DNA of 45,008 bases from Bacillota bacterium (GTDB taxonomy: Bacteria; Bacillota; Clostridia; Saccharofermentanales; Fastidiosipilaceae): contig JASGUU010000024.1 of assembly GCA_030057555.1 (NCBI GenBank), positions 1 to 45,008 on the forward strand, given 5' to 3'. Shown piece after piece: positions 11,842 to 32,500 of the stretch (the stretch's first letter is position 1; the number at the start of each line of letters is the position of its first letter). A program made the translations under genes and the position numbers. The notes beneath the pieces are model-generated. The model saw only the letters and a list, made by a program, of their open reading frames with translations. It did not search any database and was not told the DNA's origin.

Positions 11842-11874
11842 AAGGCCCGGGCGGCGGGCATGGCTGTTGTCGCA

Positions 11875-12172
11875 TGTGCAAAATTTCGACCCTGCGCAGG
11901 GCTGGACGCATAATTATTCATCCCGATGCATATTTTGGCCGATCTATGCAGTTTTGTGGATGTTTATGCAGCGGGAGGCCGCAAAGCCTGCGGAACCTTG
12001 AAGAATTGCACATCTTCGTGCCTGTCTGTGCAAAATTTCGACCTTCCGCAGTGTTGGCTGCATAATTACTCATTCCGTTGCATATTTCTTGCGTTTTATG
12101 CAGTATCACGGGTATTTATGCACCGGGAGGCCTCAAAACCTGCGGAACCTTGATAATTTGCACAGCGCCCAC
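11875..12172. repeat. Two tandem long palindromic intergenic repeats (family A)
   Basis: Two copies start at 11875 and 12027, a period of 152 bases. Each opens with TGTGCAAAATTTCGAC and closes with TGCGGAACCTTGA plus an AT-rich tail ending in TTGCACA. The two ends are imperfect inverted repeats (TGTGCAA and TTCCGCA pair with TGCGGAA and TTGCACA), so each copy can fold into one long hairpin. The copies differ in the middle. The ends match the shorter repeats at 26014. Confidence 0.8.
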
Positions 12173-12257
12173 CATCAAAGCACGCAGTGCCCGCTCCCAA
12201 AGCGTGCATTTTGCGATCAAATGATGGAAAATCATCGCAGCACCGGCGGGAGAAGAT

Positions 12258-12707
12258 ATGGAATTCATTTCATGTCATCTGAAATACGACCGCCGGAGGC
12301 TGGATGCGCTTGAGAACAGGGCTCTGACCCGTGAAGATGTCTACGAGACGCAACAGCTCCTGAAAGCATGGGATGACCTGGTAGACGAGGGCTTTACGGA
12401 GCTGATACGGCTGATGGAAAACGGCTTTTCCGCTGTGAGCAGGCTGCACAAGCTGCCCGAAAGAGCCGCTGTCTCTCCCTTTCCGCTCGACCACGACAGA
12501 CTGCCCCATTCCTGCTATCAGACGGAAGAGCATGAACTCGTCTTTACATCCATGAATATTGTGAGCTCTCAGTCTATTGTGCCTGCGACCGGGGCTTTTT
12601 CCGAGAGGGCTCAGTCAGCACGAGAGCGCTCCGGCATCGCGCGACCGTTCGCGGCGGAAACGAAGTGCCGGCACGCTTCAGCAGGACCAGGGTGCATCGA
12701 CAATTGA
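12258..12707 (+). CDS. Hypothetical protein
   Basis: This is a 149-codon frame with GGGAG five bases before the ATG. The first 75 residues look like a real, mainly helical protein (YDRRRLDALENRALTRED, then LLKAWDDLVDEGFTELIRLMENG). The last 45 residues are Ser, Ala and Arg rich and look like non-coding translation, so the gene may be truncated or frameshifted after about residue 85. No family was recognised. It lies between the family A repeats and the methyltransferase. Confidence 0.4.
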   Translation: MEFISCHLKYDRRRLDALENRALTREDVYETQQLLKAWDDLVDEGFTELIRLMENGFSAVSRLHKLPERAAVSPFPLDHDRLPHSCYQTEEHELVFTSMNIVSSQSIVPATGAFSERAQSARERSGIARPFAAETKCRHASAGPGCIDN

Positions 12708-12857
12708 GAGTACCGGGCAATCAGTCCAGACGCTTGAAAGAGCGCCGAAACAAGCTTATGCTGATACCGCGGTTAGCATAAACTAACCAAGAGGTGGCTT
12801 TCTTTCGGGAGGGGAAGAGAGATCCATGTGTATCACCTGGGATGCTGGAGGAAGACC

Positions 12858-13538
12858 GTGGAAGAGAATCGCAGGATTCAGAACGCCTACCGCCTGACCG
12901 GCAGCAACAGCTTCTATGATGGCATGATCACCTGCTCGACCTTTCCCGGCAGGGTGGTGAGTCGTCTGGTCTGGGACATGACGGCAGAGGATGCCCGGGA
13001 ATATCTGTCGCGGGCGCTGTCCGGCATCCCCAGAGGCTTCTCGGGTCGACTGCTGGAGGTCCCGGTTGGCACGGGTGTTTTGACCATGCCGCTCTACCAG
13101 AGCCTGCCTGACGCGAAAATTGTCTGCCTGGACTATTCAGCGGAGATGCTGGCCCAGGCGCAGACAAAGGCCAGGCGCCTGGGGCTTGAGCATGTCGCCT
13201 TCCATCAGGGCGATGTGGGTGCACTGCCTTTTAAAGACGAAAGCTTTGATGTTGTTTTATCCCTGAACGGTTTCCACGCCTTCCCGGACAAGGAAGCGGC
13301 CGGTTCTGAGACCTTCCGTGTCCTGAAACGTGGCGGTTCGTTCTGTGGCTGCTTTTATGTGGCAGGTTCCTGTAAACGAACGGACTGGTTTATCCGCCAT
13401 ATCTACCAGCGGCTGAAGTTCTTTACTCCGCCATATGAAAACATGGAGAGCCTGGCTGCCCGCCTGCAGCGTTTGTACAGGGAGGTGGAACTGAGCCGGG
13501 TCAAGGGCATCGCTGTTTTTGTCTGCCGTAAAGAATGA
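12858..13538 (+). CDS. Class I SAM-dependent methyltransferase
   Basis: This is a 226-residue protein. Motif I is LLEVPVGTGVLTMPLY, followed by an acidic SAM ribose contact in IVCLDYSAEML, motif II/III around FHQGDVGALPFKDESFDVV and a typical VLKRGGSF strand. It belongs to the Methyltransf_11 (UbiE-like) group; the substrate cannot be told. The GTG at 12858 is preferred because GGAGG (12847-12851) sits six bases upstream. An alternative GTG at 12828 would add ten residues. It stands alone with no informative neighbour. Confidence 0.8.
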   Translation: MEENRRIQNAYRLTGSNSFYDGMITCSTFPGRVVSRLVWDMTAEDAREYLSRALSGIPRGFSGRLLEVPVGTGVLTMPLYQSLPDAKIVCLDYSAEMLAQAQTKARRLGLEHVAFHQGDVGALPFKDESFDVVLSLNGFHAFPDKEAAGSETFRVLKRGGSFCGCFYVAGSCKRTDWFIRHIYQRLKFFTPPYENMESLAARLQRLYREVELSRVKGIAVFVCRKE

Positions 13539-13582
13539 CTTTTTGTGAGCACAGGAAAACAGGCGCAGATAAAAAAAGGCGA

Positions 13583-13753
13583 ATGACGGAAGCCGGGTTA
13601 CCGCGCAGCTGCCATGGCTGCTCTCTGTTTCTGCCACAGACGGGAGGCTGCATCCTGCCTGACAGCTACGCTGGCATGACGGACCGCATCCGGCACTTTT
13701 GCAGCTTCACATCGCGTGATTCATCAAACCTTGATTTCTGCCCCGGCGCCTAG
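13583..13753 (+). CDS. Possible small cysteine-containing protein
   Basis: This is a 56-codon frame beginning shortly after the methyltransferase. It contains CHGC, then Cys in GGCILP and again in RHFCSF, a C-x2-C-x9-C-x16-C pattern that could bind zinc or an Fe-S cluster. The ribosome site is weak (AAAAAGGCG) and the last codons overlap the end of the convergent URO-D gene. It may be chance; no homologue is recalled. Confidence 0.25.
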   Translation: MTEAGLPRSCHGCSLFLPQTGGCILPDSYAGMTDRIRHFCSFTSRDSSNLDFCPGA

Positions 13754-14868
13754 AAGGCCATGCGCGCCCAGGTCGTGCGGTCGTCCGGGGCGAAGCCGAG
13801 GCGCCGGCGTGCCTCGGCCACATAATAGCGATACGCTTCGAGCGGCGTGCCGTTCGGGATGCGGTGGTCGAGTCCGAAGCAGATGCCGGTGTCCATGCCG
13901 GGCGCTCCGAGCGTGCGCTCGAGTTCGGCGTCGATGGCGTCCCGGCCCTGGCGCAGGACGTGCTTGTCGATGCCGCCCTTGAAGGCCATCCGCCTGCCGT
14001 GGCGCTGCCGCAGGGCGACCATGTCCATGCCGGAGGCGGGTTCGGCCGGGTACATGACATTGACGCCGCAGTCGATCAGGGCGTCGACGAGCACGGTCAT
14101 GTCACCGTCGCTGTCCTGGCTGAAGAGGGCCGAACCGCGGCCCGAGGCGAGGTCCCAGATGCGGCGGTAGTAGGGGAGCATCGACTCCCGCACCAGAGAA
14201 GGGCCGATGAGGGGACCGGACTTCCCGGCCATGTCCTCGTGGATGGAAATGACGTCGATGACAAGCTCCCGGGTGATCTGCCGGATAGCGTCCGTGACCA
14301 TGGCTGCGGCCAGGTCCAGGATGTCGGCGATGAATTCGGGCGCGTCATAGTAGAGATAGCAGAGCAACTCCTCGCCGAGCAGCTGGCGCGGCAGGTCGAA
14401 GGCGCCGGGTACGAAAAGAATGCTGAGGGCACCGGCCGCCTGACGATCCTTCGCCTCCTGCAGGCGCAGTCTCTCATAGCGCACGGGGTCGGGGCGGAAC
14501 CAGTCGCGGATGCGCAGCCAGTCGTCCGGTTCGCGGACGGGGTGGTCGAGAGGCAGGGGGAGGGTGGCGGAGCTGTGTACCAGGCGCATGGTGCGGCCGT
14601 ATTCATCGATCGAGATCCGCTCCTCCTCCGTCTCCCGCAGGATTTGTGGCCTGATGCCGCTCAGGGGGCCGAAGTTGACCTCCAGCTGCAAGACTTCGAC
14701 GCGGTCGAAGCCAAAGGCATCGAGCGAGAGTTCGGCGGATATCGCACCCTGCCGGATCCATTCGGCTTCGAGCTGCGCCAGAGGGCCGAAGAGCTCCACC
14801 AGCATCGGCCGTTCGACGGAGCCGAAGGTCATGAGTCGGATGTATTCCTCGCGCGACCAGACTGCCAT
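13750..14868 (-). CDS. Uroporphyrinogen decarboxylase (URO-D) family protein
   Basis: This is a 372-residue protein. The start at 14868 follows GGGAGG six bases upstream; the frame is open further but without a site. The C-terminal half has the URO-D family layout: DSDGDMTVLVDALIDCG, PAEPASGMDMV and MAFKGGIDKHVLRQG. True HemE motifs at the N-terminus are absent. This fits the broad URO-D-like group that includes corrinoid-linked methyltransferases and many uncharacterised clostridial proteins. A second, distant member lies at 36254. No corrinoid protein gene is adjacent, so the substrate is unknown. Confidence 0.8.
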   Translation of the reverse strand: MAVWSREEYIRLMTFGSVERPMLVELFGPLAQLEAEWIRQGAISAELSLDAFGFDRVEVLQLEVNFGPLSGIRPQILRETEEERISIDEYGRTMRLVHSSATLPLPLDHPVREPDDWLRIRDWFRPDPVRYERLRLQEAKDRQAAGALSILFVPGAFDLPRQLLGEELLCYLYYDAPEFIADILDLAAAMVTDAIRQITRELVIDVISIHEDMAGKSGPLIGPSLVRESMLPYYRRIWDLASGRGSALFSQDSDGDMTVLVDALIDCGVNVMYPAEPASGMDMVALRQRHGRRMAFKGGIDKHVLRQGRDAIDAELERTLGAPGMDTGICFGLDHRIPNGTPLEAYRYYVAEARRRLGFAPDDRTTWARMAF

Positions 14869-17763: not shown

Positions 17764-19236
17764 CTATACAATTGCGCCTATCCAGGTGAAGTAGCCCAGG
17801 CATATGGCAACGCAGCCGATAAAGCAGGAGACCAGACCGAAGACAAGTTCGTCTTTGACGTTAAAGTAGCCTGTACCAAAGTAGAGGGTGTTAACCTTGG
17901 AGTGCGGCGGCAGCGTGATGGTATATGCGATGCCCAGAGAGCAGGCAATGGCGAGTTTGACCGGGTCCATGCCGAGACCGGTGGCGATGTTCAGGACGGC
18001 CGGAATCATGATGGTCGTTCTGACTGTTTTGGAGGTGAAGATCAGGTGGCTGAAGACAGAGATGAAGATCAGGACGATGGCGATCAGTGACGGGCTCATC
18101 TTGTTCAGGCCGATGGCGTCGATGAGCTTCTGAATCAGGAAGGTTGCTCCGCCCGAGTCATTGAGGGCGTTTCCGGCTGCATAGGCACCCGCGGAGAAGA
18201 GCATGAGATCCCATTTGATATCGGCTTCCTTCCACGTGAGGACGCCGATGCCGGGCAGGAAGCAGAGCAGCATGGCGATAACAGCCGTCTGTTCCGTGGA
18301 AATCTCAAAGCCGAACATCTGCTCGTGGTAATTGCCGGTGGCCCAGAGGAAGAGAGTCAGGAGGAAGATGCCGGTGGCGCGCTTTTCCACACTGGTCATC
18401 TTGCCGAGCTTTGCAAGCTCAGCCTTGAGAATCTCTCTGACCTGGCTGGAGCCGTCGGTTGTGATCTCGCTGTCGAAGTTGTAAAGCTTGGTGCCGACCA
18501 GGAATGTCAGGACGATCGTGATCAGGGCCTGCGGGACCGAGCTCAGCATCCACTCCATGTAGCCCAGATTGCTGCCCGTATGCTGGTTGATGAAGCCGAC
18601 GGCCAGAACCTGAGCCGAAGTGGCGGTCATGATCATGGAGGTGGCAAAAGCGTTGTTCTGAACTCCCTGGAGCATCATCAGCCGGCCAAAATTGCTCTCG
18701 CCGGGAACTGCCTTGTAGACCTCGAGGAGGACCATGGCGATCGGCATGATGAGCGAAGCCCTCGCCGTGGTGGAGGGGACGAAGAGGGCGAGCAGGATGT
18801 TGACCAGAACCAGAACGGCCAGTGTCTGCTTCGGCGTCCGGCCCAGCTTCGTAACCAGTGTAAGCGCGATGCGTTTGCCGAGATTGGACTTTGACATGGC
18901 CGAGGTGAGGACGAAGGCCGCAACCATGAGCCAGATGATGTCATAGCCCAGGGTGCCGAAGGCGACCTCCTGGTCCTCCACTACCCCCAGCAGCGGAAGC
19001 AGCAGGACGACAATGATCGATGTGAGGTAGATGGGGACCGGCCTCGCAACCCACATGATCAGAGCGCCAATGAACACGGCGATGGCTTTCTGCCCAACCG
19101 GATCAAGGCCTGGAGGCGTGGGCATGAAATACAGGATCAGGAAGACCACGAATGCCAGAATGGCTCCTATGGCGCCCCCCGATAAAGAGGCTTTAATTTT
19201 GTTCCCCAAACTGCCTGATGCATTTGCTTTAGTCAT
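17764..19236 (-). CDS. DASS (SLC13) family sodium:anion symporter
   Basis: This is a 490-residue protein with about a dozen membrane helices (for example residues 20-40, 48-80 and 460-485). It is likely a sodium-coupled carrier for a dicarboxylate or similar anion. The two substrate-loop motifs, normally containing SNT, read PSTTARASLIMPI and FTSKTVRTTIMIPA. The second has a lysine at the place of Asn, which may mean a different or more negatively charged substrate. The start is supported by GGGAGG a few bases upstream. Ten bases separate it from the mutase-like gene. It is the first gene of the operon. Confidence 0.88.
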   Translation of the reverse strand: MTKANASGSLGNKIKASLSGGAIGAILAFVVFLILYFMPTPPGLDPVGQKAIAVFIGALIMWVARPVPIYLTSIIVVLLLPLLGVVEDQEVAFGTLGYDIIWLMVAAFVLTSAMSKSNLGKRIALTLVTKLGRTPKQTLAVLVLVNILLALFVPSTTARASLIMPIAMVLLEVYKAVPGESNFGRLMMLQGVQNNAFATSMIMTATSAQVLAVGFINQHTGSNLGYMEWMLSSVPQALITIVLTFLVGTKLYNFDSEITTDGSSQVREILKAELAKLGKMTSVEKRATGIFLLTLFLWATGNYHEQMFGFEISTEQTAVIAMLLCFLPGIGVLTWKEADIKWDLMLFSAGAYAAGNALNDSGGATFLIQKLIDAIGLNKMSPSLIAIVLIFISVFSHLIFTSKTVRTTIMIPAVLNIATGLGMDPVKLAIACSLGIAYTITLPPHSKVNTLYFGTGYFNVKDELVFGLVSCFIGCVAICLGYFTWIGAIV

Positions 19237-19273
19237 ACATACCTCCCAGCGAAAGAAAGTTAACGTGGTGCCA

Positions 19274-19316
19274 ATGTATACATAACAATAGCTTTACACG
19301 TTATTAACATATGTTA
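19274..19316 (-). promoter_or_regulatory. Two perfect palindromes upstream of the DASS operon, possible operators
   Basis: ATGTATACAT (19274-19283) and TAACATATGTTA (19305-19316) are perfect palindromes in the short AT-rich region just upstream of the transporter gene. They could be repressor sites or overlap the promoter. No clean -35/-10 pair could be fixed. Confidence 0.4.
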
Positions 19317-19416
19317 TCAGCGATACGCGCACGCCACTTTCTGTTATTTGTCAGTTTTGCTTTATTCTGCGAAAGTGCTTTCATGCCTGGACCATGGAGC
19401 CGTACAGGAGGGAAAA

Positions 19417-19447
19417 GGACCGGACATCAGGCAGTCCGGCCCTTTTT
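19417..19447. terminator. Bidirectional intrinsic terminator ending the radical SAM/GH3 operon
   Basis: GGACCGGAC (19417-19425) pairs with GTCCGGCCC (19434-19442) with one mismatch. TTTTT follows on the plus strand, and TTTTCCC follows on the minus strand. It lies about 80 bases past the stop of the last operon gene (19530). Confidence 0.85.
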
Positions 19448-19529
19448 ACTTCCGTATGAGGACTTCTATTGAGAAAGAATATGGCGCAACTGGGCAGATG
19501 TCAGCTGCTTTCCCAGGCCCGGCCACCCC

Positions 19530-20864
19530 TCACGGCACCGGGATATCCGAATTGTCGCACATCACCGAGCGGGTGAAGCGCTCGATCCTGTCGGCATAGC
19601 CCTTGTAGCCCATATTGAGCGGCAGAGAAAGCCAGGGAGCGAGGCGGTAGGGCTTGAGGCGGTCATGAACGGAGCGGTAGCGGTAGACCTCCCGCCAGGC
19701 ACGGAACGTGCCGGCCTCGAGCTCCTCGGGTGTCATCTGGCGGGGACGGAAGACGCAGTGCTCCACGTCGTACATCGGCCAGGCACGATCGATGATGCGC
19801 CCCTCCGACTCCAGCTGGCGGTAGTAGGCGGTGTTCGGGAAGGGCGTCAGGATCGAGTAGCGCGGCAGGTCGATCTTTGCCTTTATGCAGAGCTCCACCG
19901 TACGGTCAAAGACCCCCGGGTCGTCCTCGTCGCCGCCAAAGGCGAAGCAGCCCTGTACCAGAATCCCGTTGTCGTGCAGGATCTGCATCAGCTCGTAGTA
20001 GTTGGTGACCTGGTTGACACCCTTGTTGATAAAGGACTGTGAGGCCTGGTTGACCGACTCCATCCCGATCAGGAGACCGCGGCAGCCCGAGCGCGCGAAG
20101 CAGCTGACGAGCTCGGCATCGAAGCCGACGTGTGAGGTCGCAAGTCCCAGCCAGCTGACCTTGAGCGGCTCGATGGCCCGGAAGAGCTTCAGGGCATAGC
20201 TGCGGTCGGCGATCAGGTTGACGTCAGGGAAGACGACGACGCGCGCGTTGAGCGCTGCGATCTCGGCGACCACTTCTTCCACCGGGCGGCGGTAGACCTG
20301 ACGCCCGAAGGCGGCCGGATAGGCGCAGAAGGTGCAGGGCAGCTGGCAGCCGCGGATGGCCTCGACCGTGTTCTTTGTGATGTAGCCACGGCGGCTGAGC
20401 AGCTCGCGGCGCGGGATCGGGCGGCCGGCCATGGTGAAGCCCGGCTGCTGGCTGTAGCGCGGCTGGAGCTGGCCGGCCCGGGCATCCTCCAGCAGCTGGC
20501 CAAAGATCTGCTCGGCGAAACCCGTCACCACCGCATCGGCATGCTGCTGGGCCTCATCCGGCATCAGGGTTGGGTGGACGCCGCCCAGCACCACCGGAAT
20601 CCCACGCGCCCGGAAATAGTCCGCATAGGCATAGACACGCGCGGCCGTCCCCGTGATCGCCGTCATCAGGATCAGGTCGGCCTCGAGATCAAGCGGGATC
20701 GGGCCGACCGTCTCGTCGTAGATCACTGCTTCGTGTTCAAAATTCTCCGGCACCAGGGCCGCGAGCGTCGTCAGCGTCAGCGGCGCGTAGTGCAGGCTGT
20801 GGCCGAAGCTGCCGTCATGGCGGTGCATGGCACCCGCCGGTGCGAGAAAGGCCAGCCTCATCAT
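19530..20864 (-). CDS. B12-binding-domain radical SAM protein (third of three)
   Basis: This is a 444-residue protein. The N-terminal Rossmann-like cobalamin-binding type domain (about 1-140) contains LVPENFEHEAVIYDE and VLGGVHPTLMPDEA. The usual DxHxxG histidine loop is not seen. The radical SAM core starts with RGCQLPCTFCAY at about residue 170 (CxxxCxxC, ligands of the 4Fe-4S cluster), followed by VFPDVNLIAD and the GMESVNQ strand. The C-terminal part (TPEELEAGTFRAWREVYRYRS) is the accessory helix region of such proteins. Its ATG overlaps the end of the GH3 gene. Members methylate, link or rearrange unactivated carbons in lipids and natural products; the substrate here is unknown. Confidence 0.88.
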   Translation of the reverse strand: MMRLAFLAPAGAMHRHDGSFGHSLHYAPLTLTTLAALVPENFEHEAVIYDETVGPIPLDLEADLILMTAITGTAARVYAYADYFRARGIPVVLGGVHPTLMPDEAQQHADAVVTGFAEQIFGQLLEDARAGQLQPRYSQQPGFTMAGRPIPRRELLSRRGYITKNTVEAIRGCQLPCTFCAYPAAFGRQVYRRPVEEVVAEIAALNARVVVFPDVNLIADRSYALKLFRAIEPLKVSWLGLATSHVGFDAELVSCFARSGCRGLLIGMESVNQASQSFINKGVNQVTNYYELMQILHDNGILVQGCFAFGGDEDDPGVFDRTVELCIKAKIDLPRYSILTPFPNTAYYRQLESEGRIIDRAWPMYDVEHCVFRPRQMTPEELEAGTFRAWREVYRYRSVHDRLKPYRLAPWLSLPLNMGYKGYADRIERFTRSVMCDNSDIPVP

Positions 20865-22519
20865 GCAGGTGCCCTCCCTTTCTGTATCCCGTACATGATA
20901 GCAGCGGAGACGCCAAGGCGCTCGGCCCAGTCAAGGCGTCCCGACAGCCGCAGCGGCTTGAGATCCCCGAGCCGCCGCCCCTCCGCCAGCTCTGCCGCCA
21001 CAAAACGCCCCTCGGCATCCCCCGGCACCGGGACGACCCGTGCCTGCTCGAGCTGACCCAGGCGGCGGCAGTAGTCGTAGTGATAGTGTTCCCGCAGCTC
21101 GCGATCGAGTGCCGCCTCGAGTTCGGAGAATTCCGGCCATTTCGCGAGCCGCGCGCTGTCACAGAAGAGCAGATAGTGGCGCCGGGAAGGATGAGGGGCT
21201 AAGAGGCAGAGCCCGAGTCCGCCTCCCGCGGCCGGCAGCAGCCGGTCCAGGATCTGAGTGACACTGGCCTCGTCCAGCTTCTCGCCATGCAGGTCGACTG
21301 ACGCCTGACCGCGCCCGATGAAGCGAAAGCGTGGCAGGGCCCCAAGTTTCCCACTGACCTCGATGCGGTCACCGAGGCGGTAGCGACAGAGCCCACCACC
21401 ATTGGTGATGACGACCTCATAGCGGGCACCGGGCTCGAGATCGGAGGCGGACTTTGCGTCATTTGTGTTGACTGTACCGTCGCCGGCGAGCGGCAGAAAC
21501 TCGAAGTGATGGGAGCGCCAGGCAAGCAGCGGCTCGCTCCCGTCCGCCCAGGGCAGGCTGACAAAGCCTTCGGTGGCGAGCAGGCCCTTGGGCTGCAGCC
21601 GGGCCTGCGGGAAGAGGAGCTCGAGCTGCCGGGCGTCCTGGGCGGCGGCTGCATCGGCCCAGCAGCTGATGACTTCGAGTTCCGGCCAGAGCTTCGCCCA
21701 GTTGCCTTCGAGGCTGCGGTACACCGCAAAGTTCCTGTCGCTCTCGACGAGCCGTTCGAGGTGCTCGAGCAGGCGCAGCAGGAAGCTCGGGTTCCAGATT
21801 GAGATCAGGCCGAGGTCGGGGCTTGCCACCAGATCCTCGAGGCAGTGGCGAAAGAAGCGCTCCATGTCGCGCTCAGCCGCGAGTCCCGGCCGGCTGACGA
21901 AGACAGCGCGCATGGCCCGGGCCTCGAGGCGGCCGAGGTAGTCCGTTTCGTCGTCGAAGCCGATCGCGAGGCCGCCCGCGCTTCTGGCCGGGCGGTCCCC
22001 GACCGGCGTCACGGACCAGTAGGAGCGGGTGCGCATGAGGCGGGGATGGGCCTCATAGAGATTGCTCAGCCAGGCCGCGATGCCGCGGGCGAAGGCACGC
22101 CGCAGCCGTTCGCCGTAGGGGATCAGCTTGACGGTGCCACCCGAACCCGAGGTCGGCTCGAGGCGGCGGATGCGCTCGCTCGTCAGCACCGCAGGCTCGC
22201 CGGCCGCCGTCCGTTCAACGTAGGGTTCGAGAGAGCTCCAGGTCTCGAGTGGTACCCGGTCGCGCCAGGCGGCGAGGAAGTCGTCGCCCTCGTAGTCGAG
22301 AAGGCTGTGAAAGCCCCGCTCCCGCCCGTAAACCGTATCGGCGTCCAGTTCTGCCGTCTGCCGCAGCAGGCGGAGCTGACCCAGTCGGAGGGCCTCTTCA
22401 CCGGCTGTCCCCGGTACGAGGGCCCGCCGGAAGCGGGCGGCTTCGGCCCGGAAACTCGCCCGCAGCAGGGCGTTGGCGCCCAGTGTCAGGAGGCGTCTGT
22501 GTCGCGGGACTCTTCGCAT
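20861..22519 (-). CDS. GH3 auxin-responsive-promoter family acyl-adenylate/amide synthetase
   Basis: This is a 552-residue protein. The adenylation signature PTSGSGGTVKLIPYG lies near residue 125, and VVITNGGGLCRYRLGDRIEV near 385 is the second GH3 nucleotide motif. FIGRGQASVDLHGEKLDE opens the small C-terminal domain. Plant GH3 enzymes activate carboxylic acids with ATP and join them to amino acids; bacterial members are mostly uncharacterised. Its start overlaps the stop of the GNAT-like gene (TGATG), and its end overlaps the third radical SAM gene, so the products are probably made in step. It likely activates a carboxylic acid for transfer within this pathway. Confidence 0.9.
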   Translation of the reverse strand: MRRVPRHRRLLTLGANALLRASFRAEAARFRRALVPGTAGEEALRLGQLRLLRQTAELDADTVYGRERGFHSLLDYEGDDFLAAWRDRVPLETWSSLEPYVERTAAGEPAVLTSERIRRLEPTSGSGGTVKLIPYGERLRRAFARGIAAWLSNLYEAHPRLMRTRSYWSVTPVGDRPARSAGGLAIGFDDETDYLGRLEARAMRAVFVSRPGLAAERDMERFFRHCLEDLVASPDLGLISIWNPSFLLRLLEHLERLVESDRNFAVYRSLEGNWAKLWPELEVISCWADAAAAQDARQLELLFPQARLQPKGLLATEGFVSLPWADGSEPLLAWRSHHFEFLPLAGDGTVNTNDAKSASDLEPGARYEVVITNGGGLCRYRLGDRIEVSGKLGALPRFRFIGRGQASVDLHGEKLDEASVTQILDRLLPAAGGGLGLCLLAPHPSRRHYLLFCDSARLAKWPEFSELEAALDRELREHYHYDYCRRLGQLEQARVVPVPGDAEGRFVAAELAEGRRLGDLKPLRLSGRLDWAERLGVSAAIMYGIQKGRAPA

Positions 22520-23223
22520 CAGCCGAGCAGACGCTCCGGGTCGCGCAGGTTTTCCGGTTTCAGGGAGGCCAGGCAGACGAGGTCGTCCCCGTCGACCCAG
22601 CCGGGATTCGCCGCCTGGAACCAGGCGATGTCGGGATTCCGGAGGCAGCGTGCGTCGATGTCGGCGATGCCCGGGCGCAGGCGGTCCTTTGCATCCCTAT
22701 AGCGCAGCACCCCGCTTGAGGCGTCATAGATATCGCCGTAGAGCTGGCGGGCATAGGCCTCCCGGATTGTGTTGATGCGCGGCGGCGTCGCGGTGTCGCG
22801 GCGCGGATACCAGTCGCGGAAGAGGGTGGGGAGGATGCGGTAGGTCTTATAGCCCTTTGAGATCAGAAACCACCAGTAGTCGCCATCGGCAGCTGCGGCC
22901 GCGGGAACGTGGCGCAGGGCGAAGGAGCGAAAAAGCGCTGTGGAGCCGCGGCTCGTGGCCCGGATGATGGTGTCGCCGCTGAAGACGCCGGTCTCCCGGC
23001 TGCCGTCGGGCAGCGTCACCGCGAGGCGCCGCTCGCTCGAGAAGCCCTCGACATCGCCGTCCGGACCGCGGAGGAGGTGGATGCCGTCCTTCGCCATGAG
23101 ATCCTGGCGGAAGCGCGCCTCGTCCATGCCGAGGTAGCTCTCCTCCATCAGTTCGTAGAGGGTCGCGATGAGGTCATCGGACAGAGCTGCGACGGGCAGA
23201 AATTCGGCTTCCAGGCGTTTCAT
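22519..23223 (-). CDS. GNAT-like acyltransferase domain protein of the GH3 cluster
   Basis: This is a 234-residue protein with AAGGAG six bases before the start. Visible blocks are LYELMEESYLGMDEARFRQDLMAKDGIHLL, DGDVEGFSSERRLAV, FSGDTIIRATSRG and WFLISKGYKTYRILPTLFRDWYP. The last is reminiscent of the acyl-CoA binding part of GNAT-fold N-acyltransferases. The C-terminus FQAANPGWVDGDDLVCLA looks conserved in character. Assignment is by pattern only; a novel family is possible. It sits between a radical SAM gene and the GH3 gene and overlaps both. Confidence 0.65.
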   Translation of the reverse strand: MKRLEAEFLPVAALSDDLIATLYELMEESYLGMDEARFRQDLMAKDGIHLLRGPDGDVEGFSSERRLAVTLPDGSRETGVFSGDTIIRATSRGSTALFRSFALRHVPAAAAADGDYWWFLISKGYKTYRILPTLFRDWYPRRDTATPPRINTIREAYARQLYGDIYDASSGVLRYRDAKDRLRPGIADIDARCLRNPDIAWFQAANPGWVDGDDLVCLASLKPENLRDPERLLG

Positions 23224-24581
23224 GGCGTCTCCTTGCTGCCAAAGGGTTCAAGGTCGCGGTCCTCGATCCCGAAATGCAGGCCCTGCTTGCGGAACACTTC
23301 GCGGCGGAAAAGCGGATTGTAGAGCCAGTAGGTCAGCGCCCGGTAGGGGCTTCTGAGGTTGGTCCGCGGCTCGAGGAAGCGGCTCCAGATTGCGCCCGGC
23401 GCCGAAAAGCGGCTGCGGCACTCGAAGCCGATCGCGGTCAGCTCATCGGCTGTCATCTGTGCCGGCACGAAGGCCGCATGGTTGAAGCGGTAGTCCGGAT
23501 GCAGCCACCATCTGCCGTCGTAGAGCAGACGCCCCTCGGCCTCGAGGCGGTGGTAGAGCTCTGTGCCGGGGTAGGGCATCAGGATGTTAAAGGCGGCGAA
23601 GGTGAACTTCTGCCGGATCGCCCAGTCGCAGGTGCGGCGGATCGAGGCCAGGTCGTCGCCGTCGTGTCCGATCGTGAAGGCGGCCCAGGTCTGCAGGCCA
23701 AGGCGGCGCAGATGCTCCACGACCTCGTCGTACGGACGGCGGTTGGGGCTTTTGCGCATCTCAGCGAGACTTGACGCAGTCAGCGACTCGAAGCCGATCA
23801 CGAAGCCGAGGCAGCCCGACGCCACAATGAGCTCCATCAGCTCGGGGTCGTCGAGCATGTCCATCGAGCCCTGGCTGACCCAGCGTACCCGGAGGGGGAT
23901 GAGGGCGCGGCAGAGTTCTTTGAGCGCGCGGCGGTTGGCGGTGATGTTGTCGTCGACGAAGAAGAGCAGGCGCCGCCGCTGAGCCCGGATCTCCGCGACC
24001 ACCTCAGCGATGGGGCGGGTGTAGTGGTGGCGGTGGAAGTAGCAGCTGATGGCACAGTAGGTGCAGGCGTGGGGACAGCCGCGGGAGAACTGCAGCAGCG
24101 TGATGGGGAGGTAGGGCTTCCCGGCGAAGACGGCTCTGTCGACCGCCACCCCGAGCTGGGGCTGTGGGTTCGCGGCTGCGTCGTAGCGGCGTTTGAGGCG
24201 GCCGGCTGCGAGGTCAGCGAGCATCTCTGCCCAGACCGTCTCGGCGTCGCCGGTGATGATGGCATCGGCGTAGTCGAGGGCCTCCTCGGGAAGGAGCGTG
24301 ACATGCATGCCGCCCATGACGACCGGGATGCCGCGACGGTGGAGGGCTGTCGCGATCTCATAGGCGCGGCGGGCGGTGAAGCTCTCGACCGTCAGGGCCG
24401 CGAGGTCCCAGCCACCGTCGTAGGGGATTGTTTCGAAGCGATCGTCGGCGAGCACGACCTCGTGTCCGGGCGGGGTCAGGCCGGCGAGGAGGCCGAGCTG
24501 CAGCGGCTCCATGCGCCCCTCGTCGACATAGCGGCCCTGGTCGGGGCGGCCGATGGTGGGCTTGATCAGGAGGATGCGCAT
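23220..24581 (-). CDS. B12-binding-domain radical SAM protein (second of three)
   Basis: This is a 453-residue protein starting at MRILLIKPTIGRPDQG (24581), inside the end of the preceding gene. The frame extends to 24851, but that part is only a shadow of the upstream gene. The N-terminal domain (about 1-150) has PPGHEVVLADDR and VMGGMHVTLLPEEALDYAD. The cluster motif RGCPHACTYCAI (CxxxCxxC) follows near residue 178, then FFVDDNITANRR and GFVIGFESLT. The C-terminal YWLYNPLFRREVFRKQG tail recalls DUF4070-type partners of hopanoid-modifying enzymes. The ribosome site is weak, consistent with coupling. Confidence 0.88.
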   Translation of the reverse strand: MRILLIKPTIGRPDQGRYVDEGRMEPLQLGLLAGLTPPGHEVVLADDRFETIPYDGGWDLAALTVESFTARRAYEIATALHRRGIPVVMGGMHVTLLPEEALDYADAIITGDAETVWAEMLADLAAGRLKRRYDAAANPQPQLGVAVDRAVFAGKPYLPITLLQFSRGCPHACTYCAISCYFHRHHYTRPIAEVVAEIRAQRRRLLFFVDDNITANRRALKELCRALIPLRVRWVSQGSMDMLDDPELMELIVASGCLGFVIGFESLTASSLAEMRKSPNRRPYDEVVEHLRRLGLQTWAAFTIGHDGDDLASIRRTCDWAIRQKFTFAAFNILMPYPGTELYHRLEAEGRLLYDGRWWLHPDYRFNHAAFVPAQMTADELTAIGFECRSRFSAPGAIWSRFLEPRTNLRSPYRALTYWLYNPLFRREVFRKQGLHFGIEDRDLEPFGSKETP

Positions 24582-25942
24582 GGGGACCTGCTGTCTGTGT
24601 CGGCGGGGACGGCGCTGAGGCGGCGGCCCTGTTTGCGGTGGATGGAGTGGCGGGAGACGAGGTTTGCCCCGAGCTGGATCAGGCGGGCGCTGAAGCTGGC
24701 GCGCCGAACGGTGCGCAGGCGGTGCAGGATGGAGCCCAGGCGGTTGAAGTCGAGGCGCAGTCGGTAGCAGCCGGCGGCGAGCTCGGCAGCCGTCATTTGG
24801 GCGGGTTCGTAGGCGACATCGCCGTAGCGGAAGTCGGGGTCGAGCCACCATTCGGGATCGGGCAGGCGGCCCGCGGCGACGAGGCGGCGGTAGAGGGCGG
24901 TGCCGGGCATCGGCATCAGGGAGTTGAAGTTCGCCATCGCGAAGCCGGCTTCCTGGGCGAAGCGGCCTGTCTCTGTGAAGCTCGATGGGTCATCGTGGTC
25001 GTAGCCCAGGATGAAAGTTGCGTAGATCAGGAGGCCGTGGGCGTGGACGCGCTCGACGATGCGGCGGTAGGCGGCCTCCGGACTGTCGCTGCCGGCGGTC
25101 TGGAGGTTACTGGTTTTGCGCATCTCTTTCAGATTGGCGGGATTGAGGCTCTCAAAGCCCGTCAGCACGAGGAAGCAGCCTGATTCGCGCAGGGCCCGGA
25201 GGTGGCGCTCGCTCGCCAGGATATCGAGGCTGATCTGGCAGCACCAGCGCTTGCCGCTCTGGCGGAGGACGTCGAGGGTGGCGAAGAACTGCTCGTCATC
25301 CTGGTGCAGGTTGTCGTCGGCGATAAAGACGGTGCGGGCGCGCACGGTGCGGAGCTCGCGGGCGAGTTCGTCGAGGGGCTTGCGCCGCAGCCGGCCGCCG
25401 TAGAGGGCGTGGATGGAGCAGAATTCGCAGGCGTTGCGGCAGCCGCGGGAGGTCTCGACGATGGCAAGCGGGAGGTAGCGGTGGTGCTGGCCGCGTTCGC
25501 GGCCCGTGCGGTGGGGGACGGCGGTGAGCGGCGCCGACATGTCGGAGCGGTAGACGGGCTGGCGGCAGCCGGCGGCGTGGTCGCGGAGGAGGGTAGCCCA
25601 GGTGTCTTCGGCGTCGCCGATGACCACAGTGTCGACGTGGCGGGCGGCTTCGTCGGGGCAGACCGAGACGTGATGTCCGCCGGCGACGAGGACGCAGCCC
25701 TCGGCGCGATAGCGGCGGGCGAGCTCCCAGGCTCGGGCGGCGGCGTAGGTTTCGACGGACATGGCGACGATCGCGAAGCCATCGCCGGACGGCAGCTCCT
25801 CCACGCGGTCGTCGCGGCAGGTCAGCTCGAAGCCCGGCGGCGTCAGCGCCTCGAGCAGATCGAAGATGACCGGGTCGAGCGCATCGCTGCCGCGCTGCCC
25901 GCCCATTCCGACCCGGATGAGAAGAATTTTCTCTGGAGTCAT
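24566..25942 (-). CDS. B12-binding-domain radical SAM protein (first of three)
   Basis: This is a 458-residue protein. The N-terminal domain (about 1-150) includes TPPGFELTCRDDRVEE and LVAGGHHVSVCPDEAARHVD. The radical SAM motif SRGCRNACEFCSIH (CxxxCxxC) is followed by FIADDNLHQDDEQF and VLTGFESLNPANLKEMRK. The C-terminus is basic and ends in helices. It is the first gene of the five-gene operon. No ribosome binding site precedes the ATG; a promoter lies so close that the transcript may begin at the ATG itself. It is clearly related to the next radical SAM gene (shared order of blocks), suggesting duplication. Confidence 0.88.
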   Translation of the reverse strand: MTPEKILLIRVGMGGQRGSDALDPVIFDLLEALTPPGFELTCRDDRVEELPSGDGFAIVAMSVETYAAARAWELARRYRAEGCVLVAGGHHVSVCPDEAARHVDTVVIGDAEDTWATLLRDHAAGCRQPVYRSDMSAPLTAVPHRTGRERGQHHRYLPLAIVETSRGCRNACEFCSIHALYGGRLRRKPLDELARELRTVRARTVFIADDNLHQDDEQFFATLDVLRQSGKRWCCQISLDILASERHLRALRESGCFLVLTGFESLNPANLKEMRKTSNLQTAGSDSPEAAYRRIVERVHAHGLLIYATFILGYDHDDPSSFTETGRFAQEAGFAMANFNSLMPMPGTALYRRLVAAGRLPDPEWWLDPDFRYGDVAYEPAQMTAAELAAGCYRLRLDFNRLGSILHRLRTVRRASFSARLIQLGANLVSRHSIHRKQGRRLSAVPADTDSRSPCASS

Positions 25943-25948
25943 ACGTAA

Positions 25949-25978
25949 ATTTTAGGCGAGCGCGCCTGCTGCTGTCCA
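25949..25978 (-). promoter_or_regulatory. Predicted promoter for a leaderless transcript of the radical SAM/GH3 operon
   Basis: On the minus strand TGGACA (25978-25973) and TAAAAT (25954-25949) are separated by 18 bases. The -10 is followed by six bases and then the ATG at 25942. A transcript would therefore start at or next to the A of the ATG, which also explains the missing ribosome site. Confidence 0.55.
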
Positions 25979-26013
25979 CGATGGAGGGGCTGCGGCGGCC
26001 GCGCCCCCAGATC

Positions 26014-26220
26014 GCTGCGTTTTGTGCAGAATTTCAGGTTTCCACATCCGAAACGCTCGGAAGCTTGAAAAATTGAGCATTTTCGCTGCGTTTTATGCAG
26101 AATTTCGAGTTTCCGCATCTGAAACGCGCGGAAGCTTGAAAAACTGAGCATTTTCGCTGCGTTTTGTGCAGAATTTCGAGTTTCCGAACCCGAAACGCAC
26201 GGAAGCTTGAAAAATTGAAC
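26014..26220. repeat. Three tandem 71-bp palindromic repeats (family B)
   Basis: Copies begin at 26014, 26085 and 26156, with GCTGCGTTTTRTGCAGAATT at each start. CGAGTTTCCG and CGGAAGCTTG within each copy pair imperfectly, and the pairing extends into AATTTC and GAAAAATT. The ends match the long repeats at 11875 (GCARAATTTCGA; GCGGAASCTTGAARAATTG), so B is a short form of the same family. Confidence 0.85.
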
Positions 26221-26328
26221 ACCTGGCCTGGTCGGCTCACCCAAAGCCGGAGTTGAGACTCTGTTTTGATGTCCATTCCTGCCGGTGACTGAGGTGGCAG
26301 CATTATACGTACAGATCGCTGGAATAAC

Positions 26329-26500
26329 CTGAGCAAGATTTCCGCTCTGGACACAGAAAAGCGCTCCTGATCTGTCCAGACCGTAAAAAATGCTCAGCTG
26401 GCCTCCGTTCCTGAGCAAAATTTCCGCTCTGGACACAGAAAAGCGCTCCTGATCTGTCCAGACCGCAAAAAATGCTCAGCTGGCCCCCGTTCCTGAGTAG
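26329..26500. repeat. Tandem 82-bp hairpin repeats (family C)
   Basis: Copies begin at 26329 and 26411, with a third cut short near 26491. In each, CTGAGCA pairs with TGCTCAG at the ends, and TCTGGACA pairs with TGTCCAGA inside. The two full copies are almost identical, so the duplication is recent. The AAATTTC stretch after the first arm is shared with families A and B. Confidence 0.85.
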
Positions 26501-26577
26501 ATTTTCGCTGGGGTTCAACCTTGGCAACTGAATGGAGAAGCGGAAGCGCCCGACCCTCTGGTCCAGCAGCAAGATGG

Positions 26578-26745
26578 ATGCGCAAGTCCGCCCGCTGGCA
26601 GCTGGAGGCCTGGGAGCGTGGTGACGGCTGGTGCTACTGGAGCTACAGGCTGCTCTGCAGCAGTGTCCGGGAAGCTGGGAAACAGGGACTCGAGGCCAGG
26701 GATTTCGACCAGGCGACGGCGGCCTGCTGGCTGCCGAAACCCTGA
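26578..26745 (+). pseudogene. Possible 3' remnant of a GH5-type glycoside hydrolase
   Basis: The frame ending at 26745 reads QLEAWERGDGWCYWSYRLL, then DFDQATAACWLPKP at the stop. The GDGWxYWSYKL pattern and a terminal W-D-F then P close to the stop recall the end of GH5 exo-glucanases. Nothing upstream in any frame continues the homology; repeats occupy that space. Assignment is from a short motif only. Confidence 0.35.
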
Positions 26746-26929: not shown

Positions 26930-27796
26930 ATGACTGAGAAACGTCAAGGCAAAATTGGTGTGCAGCTGTCAATGCTGCGTGATGAATTCCTCGAACACGG
27001 CGTCACGGCCAGCATGGCGAAGCTGGCCGAGCTCGGCTTCTTCGCCGTCGAGATTTCACAGCTGCCGATGACTCCGGAAAACGTCGCCGCCTTCAAAAGC
27101 AGCGCGGCCGATCACGGCATTGAGATCGCCGCCCTCTCGGCCCAGCTCGAGGGCACGCCCGGCCGTCCCGGTGAGAACCTCACCGATGACTATGACAAGA
27201 TCGTGGCTGACTGCCATGAACTCGGCAGCCGCTTCCTGCGCATCGGCATGCTGCCGCTGCAGTACATGGGCAGCCGCGACAGCGCCCTCGCCTTTACGGA
27301 GCGCTGCGAGGCGATGGCCGAGCGCCTGGCCGGCGACGGCATCGAGCTCTACTACCACAACCACCATGTCGAGTTCGTCAAGTATGACGGCGAGACTCTG
27401 CTCGACCTGATCCGCGACAACACCAAACGGCTCGGCTTCGAGCTCGATGTCCACTGGATCTGGCGCGGCGGCTTCGACCCCGTCGAGGTGATCAGGGCCT
27501 ACAGCGGCCGTGTCACCCTGCTGCACCTGAAGGACTACCGCATCGCCCCGCTGGTCCTGCCCGAGGGCGGACTGAAGGATATGAGCGGCTTTATGCGCCT
27601 CTTCACCGATGTGGTCCAGTTCGCCGAGGTGGGGGCGGGTTCGCTTGACATGCCGGCCATCATCGAGGCAGGCTATGACGCCGGATCGCGCTACTTCCTG
27701 ATCGAGCAGGATACCTGCTACGGCCGCGATCCCTGGGACAGCCTGGCCGAATCGGGTGAGAACCTGAAACGCATGGGCTACGCAGACTGGTTCTAG
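26930..27796 (+). CDS. Sugar phosphate isomerase/epimerase (xylose-isomerase-like TIM barrel)
   Basis: This is a 288-residue protein with AGGAGG upstream. The family barrel can be followed: GKIGVQLSMLRDEF (strand 1), AELGFFAVEIS (strand 2), GIEIAALSAQLEG (strand 3), FLRIGML (strand 4), ELYYHNHHVEF with metal-ligand candidates, GFELDVHWIWRGGFDP and VTLLHLKDY with a histidine ligand, ending in EQDTCYGRDPWDSL. It probably isomerises a sugar or cyclitol. It is followed 44 bases later by proS but is unlikely to be functionally linked to it. A relative lies at 44324. Confidence 0.85.
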   Translation: MTEKRQGKIGVQLSMLRDEFLEHGVTASMAKLAELGFFAVEISQLPMTPENVAAFKSSAADHGIEIAALSAQLEGTPGRPGENLTDDYDKIVADCHELGSRFLRIGMLPLQYMGSRDSALAFTERCEAMAERLAGDGIELYYHNHHVEFVKYDGETLLDLIRDNTKRLGFELDVHWIWRGGFDPVEVIRAYSGRVTLLHLKDYRIAPLVLPEGGLKDMSGFMRLFTDVVQFAEVGAGSLDMPAIIEAGYDAGSRYFLIEQDTCYGRDPWDSLAESGENLKRMGYADWF

Positions 27797-29604: not shown

Positions 29605-30253
29605 CTTGCGTTGCGCGCACCTCTGCTTGAGACCAGGGCTGAGATAGAAGAATCCTTTTTGCGAAGTCTGCTACGTGCAGACGCTTTCCGTTTCCACTGT
29701 TTACCTGACGGCGAGAGCTTCGACAGCCTCCACTTCTTCTCTGCTGGGTGATATTGAGGCGGGACGCTGGCCGTCGGTCAGGACGGCAGGTGCTGCTTCG
29801 AGCCGGAGACGATCAGAAATATAACAGGCAAGCCGCGTTTCATCCTTATGATATTTGGCTATAATTCAATAAATCTATTACTATAAGAGCTGAACCTGCT
29901 GACTTTAAGAGAGACTCTACATTGGGCCTTTGCGATCGGAGCCGTCACAGACTGTCTGCAGCAGTAGAGAAGTGGTGATTTACGTCACGCACAGGCATCA
30001 GGTACCGCATGAACAATTCGCAGCCGCGTTGTATAGATGGACATGATAAACACATGAGCTTTGTCTCGTGACAGTAATCGGGATGGCAGCTCCTCCAGCA
30101 GCTGCAGGAGCCTGGTACAAGCTCCAAATATCTGTCAATTGTGCCTTTAGTGACCAGAGATCACCAGGCGGTACGCATGAGTTGTCAACGGATACAAAAA
30201 ACTAACTGCCAAAGGAAAAAAGGACTGATACCAGGTCGCAAGGGAGGATGAAG
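29605..30253. other. Long intergenic leader before the secreted repeat protein
   Basis: About 650 bases without a supported gene. An AT-rich patch around 29860-29890 contains TTGGCT and TACTAT-like elements that could be a promoter. The last bases hold GGGAGG (30242-30247) for the next gene. A CTGAGA near 29640 resembles one TPP-riboswitch motif but lacks the rest. Confidence 0.4.
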
Positions 30254-32500
30254 ATGAAACGGAAAAAAGGCATAGCAGGTGTTGTCGTGCTGGTGCTGCT
30301 GGCATCCCTGATCCTGCAGGCTAACCCGGTGATGGCGGCAGAAGGGGATGTAGCCATCAACGCGACGAACTTTCCCGATGCCAATTTCAGGAACTTTGTT
30401 AAACAGTACGACACCAACGGAGACAACATTCTGCAGCAGAGTGAACGGGATACTGTGAAAAGAATGGACGCCGGGAAGAAAGAAATAGCCAGCCTTGTGG
30501 GAATAGAGTATTTTTCCAAGCTGACCTCATTACTCTGCTATGATAACCAGCTCCAAACTCTCGATGTCAGCAATAATACTGAATTGGGATCTTTGATTTG
30601 CGGCAATAACCAGCTTGAAGAGCTTGATGTCAGCAGGAATCTCGAGTTGTGCTCACTGTATTGTCATGATAACCAGCTCTGGTCCCTTGATGTCAGCAGG
30701 AATACGGAGTTGACCGCTCTGGCGTGCAGTAACAACCACATCACATCCCTTGATGTCCGCCAGAACACGAAGTTGGAGTTGCTATCGTGTACGCGTAACC
30801 ACCTCAGCTTTCTTGACTTAAGCCGTAACAACAATTTACTGACAGATTATGTATTTATATATGGACAGACTCTTCACTTCCCGATTTACTCTATGTGGGC
30901 TGGAGGCAAGTATCAGGCCCATATAGCGGCAAACAGTGATGACAATCCCGCGAATATATCAGGCGTCAGGCTGTCGGATGGCAGCCCTCTGCCGGCCAGT
31001 GCGAGTTATGATGCCGACAGCGGAATCCTGACGATCGATCCCGATGAGAAAATAGATGAAATCACCTTTGACTACGATGTGCACTCCCCTCCGTTTCCTG
31101 ATCTGCGCATGGATGTTACAGCAGAAGTGTCATGTGGTTTTGACGTAAATATCGCACATATCGACGGCAATGGAACGGTACAGGCGGATAAGACGAGCGG
31201 TATCGATCCTGGTGAGACGGTTACCCTGACCATCACACCGGCCGCAGGCTACGAGCTCGATTATCTGTGGGTGGCCGACTGCTTCTCGGGAGAGGTGACA
31301 GTTACTAACAATCAATTCGTGATGCCGGAATCGTATGTGAATGTCGCTGTCGGTTTCAGGGAGAAAGGCTCCGGTCCCCATATCGCTGTCTTCCGCGCGG
31401 GCACCAAGACGGAGTACACGGCAGGAGAAACGGTTGCCCTGGCGGCACGAGCCGAAGGCGGGACGCCGCCGTATAAGTATGAGTTCTATGTCATACGCTC
31501 CAATGGAGCCAGGGTGATCCTGCGTAATTATGCAATCGCTAACACCTACAACTGGAAACCGGTGACGCCGGATACCTACACCGTCGGTGTGAATGCCAAA
31601 GACGCCAACGGGAAGATCGCGAATATGGAAAGGACTGTGAAAGTCAATTCCGCCACGGCCGATCCTCTTCGGATCGCCGTCTTCCGTGCAGGCACCAAGA
31701 CGGAATACAGCCCGGGAGAAACGGTTGCCCTGGCGGCACGGGCTGAGGGCGGGATGCCGTCGTATCAGTATCAGTTCTATATCATACGCTCAAATGGAAC
31801 CAGGGTGATCCTGCGCGATTATGCAATCGGTAACACCTATAACTGGAAACCTGTTACACCGGACACCTATAAGGTCGGCGTAAGTGCCAGGGATGCCAAC
31901 GGAAAGACGGTTAAACAGGAAAAGACGGTTACCGTGACGTCGCCACTCGTGGTCGCTGTCTTCCGTGCAGGCACTAAGACAGTTTACACGGCAGGCGAAA
32001 CAGTTGCCCTGGCGGCCAGGGGGGAAGGCGGATTGCCGCCGTATCAGTATCAGTTCTATGTCATACGATCCAATGGAACCAGGGTGATCCTGCGCAATTA
32101 TGCAACTGGTAACACCTACAACTGGAAACCGGTGACGCCGGATACCTATAAAGTCGGCGTAAGTATCAGGGATACTGCAGGTACTGTTCGCAATCAGGAA
32201 AAGACGGTTACCGTGACGTCGCCACTCGTGGTAGCTGTCTTCCGTGCAGGCACCAAGACGGAATACACAGCAGGCGAAACGGTAGCTCTGGCCGCCAGGG
32301 GAGAAGGCGGACTGCCGTCGTATCAGTATCAGTTCTATGTCTACCGCTCCAACGGGACCAGGGTGATCCTGCGGGATTATGCCCTGAGCAACGTATACAA
32401 CTGGAAACCGGTGACGCCGGACACCTATAAGGTCTGTGTTGCGATCAAAGACTCGAATGGGAAAGTGGTGACAGCGGCGGTTTTTGTTACCGTGAACTAA
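30254..32500 (+). CDS. Secreted leucine-rich-repeat protein with four C-terminal tandem repeats
   Basis: This is a 748-residue protein. The start at 30254 is six bases after GGGAGG; the ATG at 30248 abuts it. A signal peptide ends near NPVMAAEG. Next come a FPDANFRNF segment with an EF-hand-like DTNGDNILQQSE loop (about 45-60), five or six leucine-rich repeats of the NNQLxxLDVSxN type (about 80-200), and a bacterial-repeat domain (GNGTVQADKTSG). Finally there are four copies of a roughly 95-residue domain beginning AVFRAGTKTEYTAGETVALA and containing NTYNWKPVTPDTYKVGV. No LPXTG or S-layer anchor is seen, so it may be released. A surface or binding role is likely; no enzyme motif is present. 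Confidence 0.85.
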   Translation: MKRKKGIAGVVVLVLLASLILQANPVMAAEGDVAINATNFPDANFRNFVKQYDTNGDNILQQSERDTVKRMDAGKKEIASLVGIEYFSKLTSLLCYDNQLQTLDVSNNTELGSLICGNNQLEELDVSRNLELCSLYCHDNQLWSLDVSRNTELTALACSNNHITSLDVRQNTKLELLSCTRNHLSFLDLSRNNNLLTDYVFIYGQTLHFPIYSMWAGGKYQAHIAANSDDNPANISGVRLSDGSPLPASASYDADSGILTIDPDEKIDEITFDYDVHSPPFPDLRMDVTAEVSCGFDVNIAHIDGNGTVQADKTSGIDPGETVTLTITPAAGYELDYLWVADCFSGEVTVTNNQFVMPESYVNVAVGFREKGSGPHIAVFRAGTKTEYTAGETVALAARAEGGTPPYKYEFYVIRSNGARVILRNYAIANTYNWKPVTPDTYTVGVNAKDANGKIANMERTVKVNSATADPLRIAVFRAGTKTEYSPGETVALAARAEGGMPSYQYQFYIIRSNGTRVILRDYAIGNTYNWKPVTPDTYKVGVSARDANGKTVKQEKTVTVTSPLVVAVFRAGTKTVYTAGETVALAARGEGGLPPYQYQFYVIRSNGTRVILRNYATGNTYNWKPVTPDTYKVGVSIRDTAGTVRNQEKTVTVTSPLVVAVFRAGTKTEYTAGETVALAARGEGGLPSYQYQFYVYRSNGTRVILRDYALSNVYNWKPVTPDTYKVCVAIKDSNGKVVTAAVFVTVN
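31382..32497 (+). repeat. Four in-gene tandem repeats of 279-291 bp
   Basis: The shared sequence GC(T/C)GTCTTCCG recurs at 31385, 31676, 31955 and 32234, giving periods of 291, 279 and 279. Copies are very similar at DNA level over long stretches, including TGGAAACCGGTGACGCCGGA-like blocks, so they expanded recently or are kept alike by conversion. Each copy encodes one predicted Ig-like domain. Confidence 0.9.

Follow-up and report, generated by a model that had tools for sequence, protein, structure and literature searches.

The bacterial GH3 enzyme OlsH uses ATP to join a free fatty acid to ornithine, yielding N-acyl ornithine without an acyl carrier protein or coenzyme A (CoA), as described in its report (PMC12493201). 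We examined a stretch of 45,008 nucleotides (hereafter the window), the complete contig C24 of a 2.9 Mb Bacillota genome that is 96% complete, in which a gene for a GH3 acyl-amide synthetase-like enzyme lies among three radical S-adenosylmethionine (SAM) genes, R1 to R3, and a gene for a protein of GNAT fold. The OlsH/OlsI system of Singulisphaera acidiphila resembles this set in having a bacterial GH3 ATP-dependent ligase that is encoded in an operon, is carrier-free and has three nucleotide-binding motifs (PMC12493201). It differs in that the neighbours of OlsH are an N-methyltransferase (OlsG) and an alpha/beta-hydrolase (OlsI) and not radical SAM or GNAT genes; the words "radical", "GNAT" and "acetyltransferase" are absent from the text of PMC12493201. 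Plant GH3 amido synthetases (GH3.8, GH3.12 and JAR1) have Pfam domains and adenylation motifs in common with the GH3 enzyme of the set, whereas they match it only locally in sequence, have other partners and belong to other organisms. Among radical SAM enzymes, the cobalamin-dependent MgmA, CysS, TsrM, TokK and OxsB share a two-domain fold with R3, and the solved structure nearest to R3 is that of AprD4 (6fd2), a radical SAM diol dehydratase of apramycin biosynthesis (PMC5461906). R3 nevertheless falls outside the curated family of this 1,2-diol dehydratase (64.3 bits against a cut-off of 500), and the set has no partner reductase.

The gene combination is not described in the open-licence literature that was searched, as judged from titles and the beginnings of abstracts among the matches listed, most subscription papers lying outside this search. 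This supports the proposal, made in a first-pass annotation of the window, that no described pathway has this gene set and that it is a candidate for a new system. Two further leads on GH3 (PMC8841776 and PMC4454575) were rejected because GH3 there stands for glycoside hydrolase family 3. The enzyme families are of known kinds, and their combination, the radical SAM clades and the GH3 clade appear to be undescribed. The five radical SAM clades of the set belong to no curated family and its two GNAT-like families to no Pfam family, and its GH3 enzymes form a clade of their own. Such a compact, carrier-free enzyme set, kept together in distant phyla, points to a conserved metabolite.

Linkage of the gene set across phyla

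Five open frames run along the minus strand of the window from position 25942 to 19530, encoding in order R1 (24566-25942, 458 amino acids (aa)), R2 (23220-24581, 453 aa), the GNAT-fold protein (22519-23223, 234 aa), the GH3 enzyme (20861-22519, 552 aa) and R3 (19530-20864, 444 aa). Each frame overlaps its neighbours, as previously annotated and as read directly in the sequence: R1 and R2 share 16 bases, the R2/GNAT and GH3/R3 junctions are ATGA, and the GNAT/GH3 junction is TGATG. In a second species of the genus (the congener), all five genes recur with their order unchanged. Comparison of the two genomes gives ratios of nonsynonymous to synonymous substitution (dN/dS) of 0.042 for R3, 0.091 for R2, 0.105 for the GNAT-fold protein, 0.130 for R1 and 0.181 for GH3, and we therefore conclude that the five genes are coding and under constraint.

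A scan of species genomes with an alignment of the GNAT protein alone returned 193 relatives, of which the best 80 loci were kept. These loci often contain three further members: two radical SAM genes, R4 and R0, and C3, which encodes a second GNAT-like protein. GH3 is present in 75 of the 80 loci, R3 in 67, C3 in 65, R4 in 62, R1 and R2 in 52 each and R0 in 39, all of these counts being minima since radical SAM frames shorter than 380 aa or scoring below 100 bits (the short ones at contig ends) were removed before phylogenetic analysis. The recurrence of GH3 beside radical SAM genes, which the first-pass annotation had proposed as a check, is seen across genomes. A core of R3, R4, C3, GNAT and GH3 is complete in 61/80 loci, at least seven members are found in 43/80 and all eight in 29/80, while 16 loci have exactly the core five and nothing more, the non-Clostridia L079, L088, L090, L092, L095 and L096 among them. 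GH3 lies directly 3' of the GNAT gene in 73 of the 76 loci with at least 1.2 kb of downstream sequence, and the two frames overlap in 64/75. The exceptions to this adjacency are L091, where GH3 is 7 kb away in the same cluster, and L094 and L098, with no GH3 on the locus.

According to the record titles of sampled loci, which are uncurated for metagenome-assembled genomes, the set occurs mostly in rumen and gut Clostridia, with further loci in planctomycetes, Nitrospirota, Desulfobacterales, Verrucomicrobia, Anaerolineales, Thermoanaerobaculales and Saganbacteria. Peptoclostridium litorale DSM 5388 (L084), a strain available from a culture collection, has seven set genes in a row. A GH3 match was found in all 17 genomes tested behind GNAT loci, and R4 and C3 in all six genomes tested, the window's own included. 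In a draw of 398 genomes from the phylum, five genomes, including the window's own, encode the 234 aa protein at E <1e-30; the remaining four come from different families, and each has GH3 and radical SAM members of the set in the same cluster as this gene. GH3 matches at E 0.001 occur in 27 genomes of this draw, with scores >760 bits confined to the five genomes with a strong GNAT match and the next GH3 at 200 bits, a gap that is partly built in, as those five genomes are rows of the query alignment. We also considered whether GH3 genes are commonly accompanied by radical SAM genes, and this was rejected by nine other GH3 loci of the phylum (L015-L017 and L165-L170), where the 5.9 to 19.1 kb read contain no open reading frame (ORF) of at least 90 aa that matches R2 or R3 or holds CxxxCxxC. 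One locus (L013; G335:C144:22311-22574) with a GNAT match at E 4.5e-4 and five internal stops was put aside as a remnant, which suggests that this lineage once had the set and lost it.

In a phylogeny built with FastTree from 443 columns, all 276 radical SAM sequences fall into five clades, each with one sequence per locus. The clades contain 39, 53, 53, 68 and 63 sequences, with supports of 0.997, 0.988, 1.0, 0.891 and 0.937, respectively; R1 of the window falls in the clade of 53 with support 0.988, R2 in the other clade of 53 and R3 in the clade of 68. Together with the 73/76 adjacency of GNAT and GH3, these one-per-locus clades rule out a chance neighbourhood.

The set is larger than the five genes of the window, whose genome carries R4 and then C3 on another contig (C56:5276-6607 and C56:6638-7681, respectively); in the congener, the same two genes are paired on contig C174. 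No R0 was found in the window's genome, where the R4 profile matches four radical SAM proteins, R1 to R4. The system is thus split, with five of its seven genes in the window. Upstream of R4 in both species of the genus lies a fusion of a ROK sugar kinase and a GmhA-like phosphoheptose isomerase (L121:3615-5270, on C56, and L122:301-1935), which overlaps the start of R4 by 4 bases. Linkage conserved across phyla, together with the R4-C3 pair at another place in the window's genome, strongly supports the view that the five genes are one functional set, and the possibility, named at the outset as one that would undo the claim of novelty, that homologous sets do not keep these genes together is contradicted by the 80 loci.

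Enzymes of the set

The GH3 enzyme matches the N-terminal, middle and C-terminal GH3 domains of Pfam with 90.9, 62.5 and 24.1 bits; the cut-off is 23.6 bits for each domain and is passed narrowly by the C-terminal one. Its nucleotide-binding motifs, of which two had been noted before, number three: TSGSGGTVK at residue 123, LLATEG at 313 and GGLCRYRLGD at 375, positions that were compared with those quoted in PMC12493201. The eight key residues G125, K131, T316, E317, G375, G376, R379 and D384 are conserved in 75/75 relatives. In a tree, a long stem (length 0.76, support 0.727) separates the 76 GH3 enzymes of the set from 10 further bacterial GH3 sequences, and their best sequence relatives with solved structures are plant GH3 enzymes (E 7.9e-18). 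From family knowledge and the intact motifs, the enzyme is predicted to form an amide. By eye, no operon recognisable as OlsH-OlsI surrounds the planctomycete GH3 genes L171 and L172. In L171, a second, different GH3 lies near ORFs that by eye resemble a beta-ketoacyl synthase and an acyl carrier protein (L171:6323-8326 and 10551-14470), and this stretch is possibly another GH3 lipid locus.

R1, R2 and R3 each carry a CxxxCxxC motif, as previously noted (CRNACEFC, CPHACTYC and CQLPCTFC, respectively), and exceed the Pfam Radical_SAM cut-off with 51.5, 63.6 and 46.4 bits; across R0 to R4, both CxxxCxxC and GGxH are found in 272/272 sequences. The first-pass annotation had labelled all three as B12-type. 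This label is half right at the level of domains: against the Pfam B12-binding cut-off of 32.1 bits, the N-terminal B12-binding-like domain of R3 scores above (38.4 bits), whereas R1 (28.4) and R2 (27.5) score below. R1 to R3 do not approach any curated NCBIfam cut-off (at best 85.0 against 577.6 bits), nor do the examples of R4 and R0 tested, and none of the R0 to R4 examples tested reaches the cut-off of a curated methylase family.

Structure prediction, which had been proposed for all five proteins, was run for R3 and for the GNAT protein. The R3 model (predicted local distance difference test (pLDDT) 90.0) has AprD4 as its nearest solved structure, with Z 31.8 and a root mean square deviation (rmsd) of 2.8 over 387 residues at 20% identity, followed by MgmA (9ccb; Z 26.4), CysS (26.3), TsrM (24.7), OxsB (24.2) and TokK (18.1). 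AprD4 is also the best sequence match of the R3 profile among solved structures (E 3.7e-17), whereas the R4 profile matches MgmA best, and TokK, ahead of AprD4. AprD4 is not known to need cobalamin. With these differing matches, it is plausible that R3 and R4 catalyse different reactions, and cobalamin use cannot be assumed for all of these enzymes; "B12-type" stands here for a resemblance of domains. A cofactor review puts the residue beneath the cobalt in a loop (PMC13331322). A match to CobS is present in three of the six genomes tested for it (G508, G432 and G308) and absent from the window's genome, the congener and G353. The window's genome encodes other proteins with strong B12-binding domains, and if cobalamin is used there, it may therefore be taken up from outside.

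The 234 aa GNAT-like protein has no Pfam or NCBIfam match at E 0.01. Its AlphaFold2 model (pLDDT 95.1) has GNATs as its top Foldseek matches, with GCN5 at Z 13.2 and rmsd 2.8 over 156 aligned residues, and the predicted fold thus bears out the earlier call of the protein as GNAT-like. The acyl-CoA loop motif of GNATs is R-Q-x-x-G-x-G/A. It is absent here, the loop after FSGDTII being mostly WG-x-x-EL; given this atypical loop and the lack of a Pfam GNAT match, the acyl donor is uncertain. An FSGDT motif occurs in 79/80 relatives, although it is part of the search pattern and hence not independent evidence. C3, mostly ~345 aa long, has weak GNAT matches in its N-terminal half.

Proposed pathway and alternative readings

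Radical SAM enzymes act on unactivated carbons, GH3 enzymes adenylate carboxylic acids and form amide bonds, and GNATs transfer acyl groups. We propose, giving it an even chance, that the seven enzymes encoded in the window's genome make up one self-contained biosynthetic pathway, where the radical SAM enzymes edit a carbon skeleton and GH3 forms an amide on it. The radical SAM enzymes would modify the skeleton of a small precursor from primary metabolism by C-methylation, deoxygenation or ring chemistry; GH3 would adenylate a carboxylate with ATP and condense it with an amine, probably that of an amino acid; and the two GNAT-like proteins would move acyl groups onto amines of the intermediate. 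A common product, the order of the steps, the formation of an amide, any use of cobalamin and the nature of the substrate are what we infer. The set is without a carrier protein, which fits the carrier-free OlsH, but this likeness is no proof of a fatty-acid substrate. Of the acyl amide or modified lipid suggested by the first-pass annotation, the amide fits family knowledge and the intact GH3 motifs, but the lipid is one option among several.

At somewhat less than an even chance, we extend this proposal to the core R3-R4-C3-GNAT-GH3 in Bacillota, Planctomycetota, Nitrospirota, Desulfobacterales and others, which would encode an undescribed pathway where carrier-free GH3 ligation of a radical-SAM-built acid gives an amide metabolite of a new class or a membrane amino-lipid, with R1, R2 and R0 as lineage-specific elaborations of one scaffold. 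There is a fair chance that the product belongs to a new class.

Several observations weigh against the first of these proposals. The 80 loci were found through two conserved peptide patterns, and close relatives are over-represented among them. L094 lacks GH3 on its locus, and in L098 the GNAT gene stands without any other set member on 15.8 kb, the clearest case against obligate linkage. The window's own genome splits the set between two places. A search of 198 relatives for GH3 gave a strong match only in the window's genome and the congener and weak matches in three others, and the set is therefore patchy within its order. Furthermore, the GNAT and C3 profiles have no convincing sequence match to solved structures, those of acyltransferases included.

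A possible but doubtful alternative, the lipid version of the first-pass annotation, is an amino-lipid pathway, in which GH3, like OlsH, would couple a fatty acid with an amino acid and the fatty chain would be methylated, cyclised or changed in some other way by the radical SAM enzymes. OlsH, a bacterial GH3 that has been characterised, acts as an N-acyl amino acid synthetase in the formation of ornithine lipids, and further N-acyl amino acids are expected by its authors from other bacterial GH3s (PMC12493201). Hopanoid and ladderane-lipid families (HpnJ, HpnR and TIGR04072) are among the weak radical SAM matches; however, these matches are far below their cut-offs (e.g., 85 against 577.6 bits), no lipid gene recurs beside the set among the 25 commonest of 102 flanking families, and an OlsI-type O-acyltransferase was not identified next to the set in the window.

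It is unlikely, in our view, that the product is derived from an aminosugar or cyclitol, with R3 acting as an AprD4-like dehydratase on a sugar-like substrate, the GNATs N-acylating it and GH3 attaching an amino acid. The structure nearest to R3 is indeed that of an enzyme with an aminosugar substrate, well ahead of the next in Z score and also matched in sequence, and the kinase-isomerase fusion next to R4 in both species is a possible substrate hint. Nevertheless, the AprD4-family score of R3 is 64.3 against 500 bits, the set has no AprD3-type reductase, the R4 profile matches MgmA and TokK before AprD4, and ROK is missing from the 25 Pfam families that occur most often in 83 flanking proteins. 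A pathway in which the radical SAM enzymes modify a ribosomally synthesised and post-translationally modified peptide (RiPP) is highly improbable, since, despite weak NCBIfam matches to RiPP radical SAM enzymes (ApyD and rSAM_ocin_1), in the 800 bases next to each end, short ORFs that start with ATG are shared by at most 3 of 81 loci and the overlap of the GNAT and GH3 frames in 64/75 loci leaves no space between them.

Ends of the set and other features of the window

The limits of the set were examined by running 83 of 134 flanking proteins against Pfam and inspecting the 25 commonest of 102 families. No non-member family occurs in more than 5 of the 83 proteins, Radical_SAM being the commonest, and flanking radical SAM proteins picked by motif (L037, L068, L075 and L096) do not match R1 to R3. 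In the window, the set is flanked on one side by a sodium:sulfate symporter-type gene (17764-19236) and on the other by a TIM-barrel gene (26930-27796), neither of which corresponds to the OlsI alpha/beta-hydrolase or the OlsG methyltransferase of the OlsH operon. Control of the set by RNA was rejected because, in 13 sources, nothing inside the set reaches an Rfam gathering score; the closest matches lie outside it and are a tRNA ~0.7 kb upstream (L076), a group II intron domain ~0.7 kb downstream (L084) and a c-di-GMP-I riboswitch ~1.1 kb downstream (L067). A role in anti-phage defence was likewise rejected, as neither the five proteins nor C3 have a PADLOC match at E 0.001.

The set was also said to be bounded by one promoter and one terminator. 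A promoter-like site and a hairpin do exist, but both claims are weak. The promoter-like site (25978-25949) matches 10/12 positions and ends 6 bases before the ATG of R1, and there is therefore no space for a ribosome-binding site after it; two such sites occur in 19200-26700, against 0.7 (standard deviation 0.9) in shuffled sequences. The possible terminator hairpin 3' of R3 (19420-19439) is flagged as terminator-like on the plus strand only and is weak on the minus strand, where the tail after the hairpin is TCCTTTTCCC.

Just upstream of R1, two tandem arrays occupy 26012-26497, with a 71-base unit in 2.9 copies and an 82-base unit in 2.1 copies. Further arrays in the window have a 71-base unit (43676-43837) and a 152-base unit (11875-12164). 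A 750 aa protein (30248-32500), encoded with a 279-base repeat of 3.7 copies, has weak leucine-rich repeat, InlB-repeat and Ig-like matches, and on these it is probably a surface protein. At 33820-35507 lie genes for a sigma-70 region 2 protein and then an RsgI-like anti-sigma protein.

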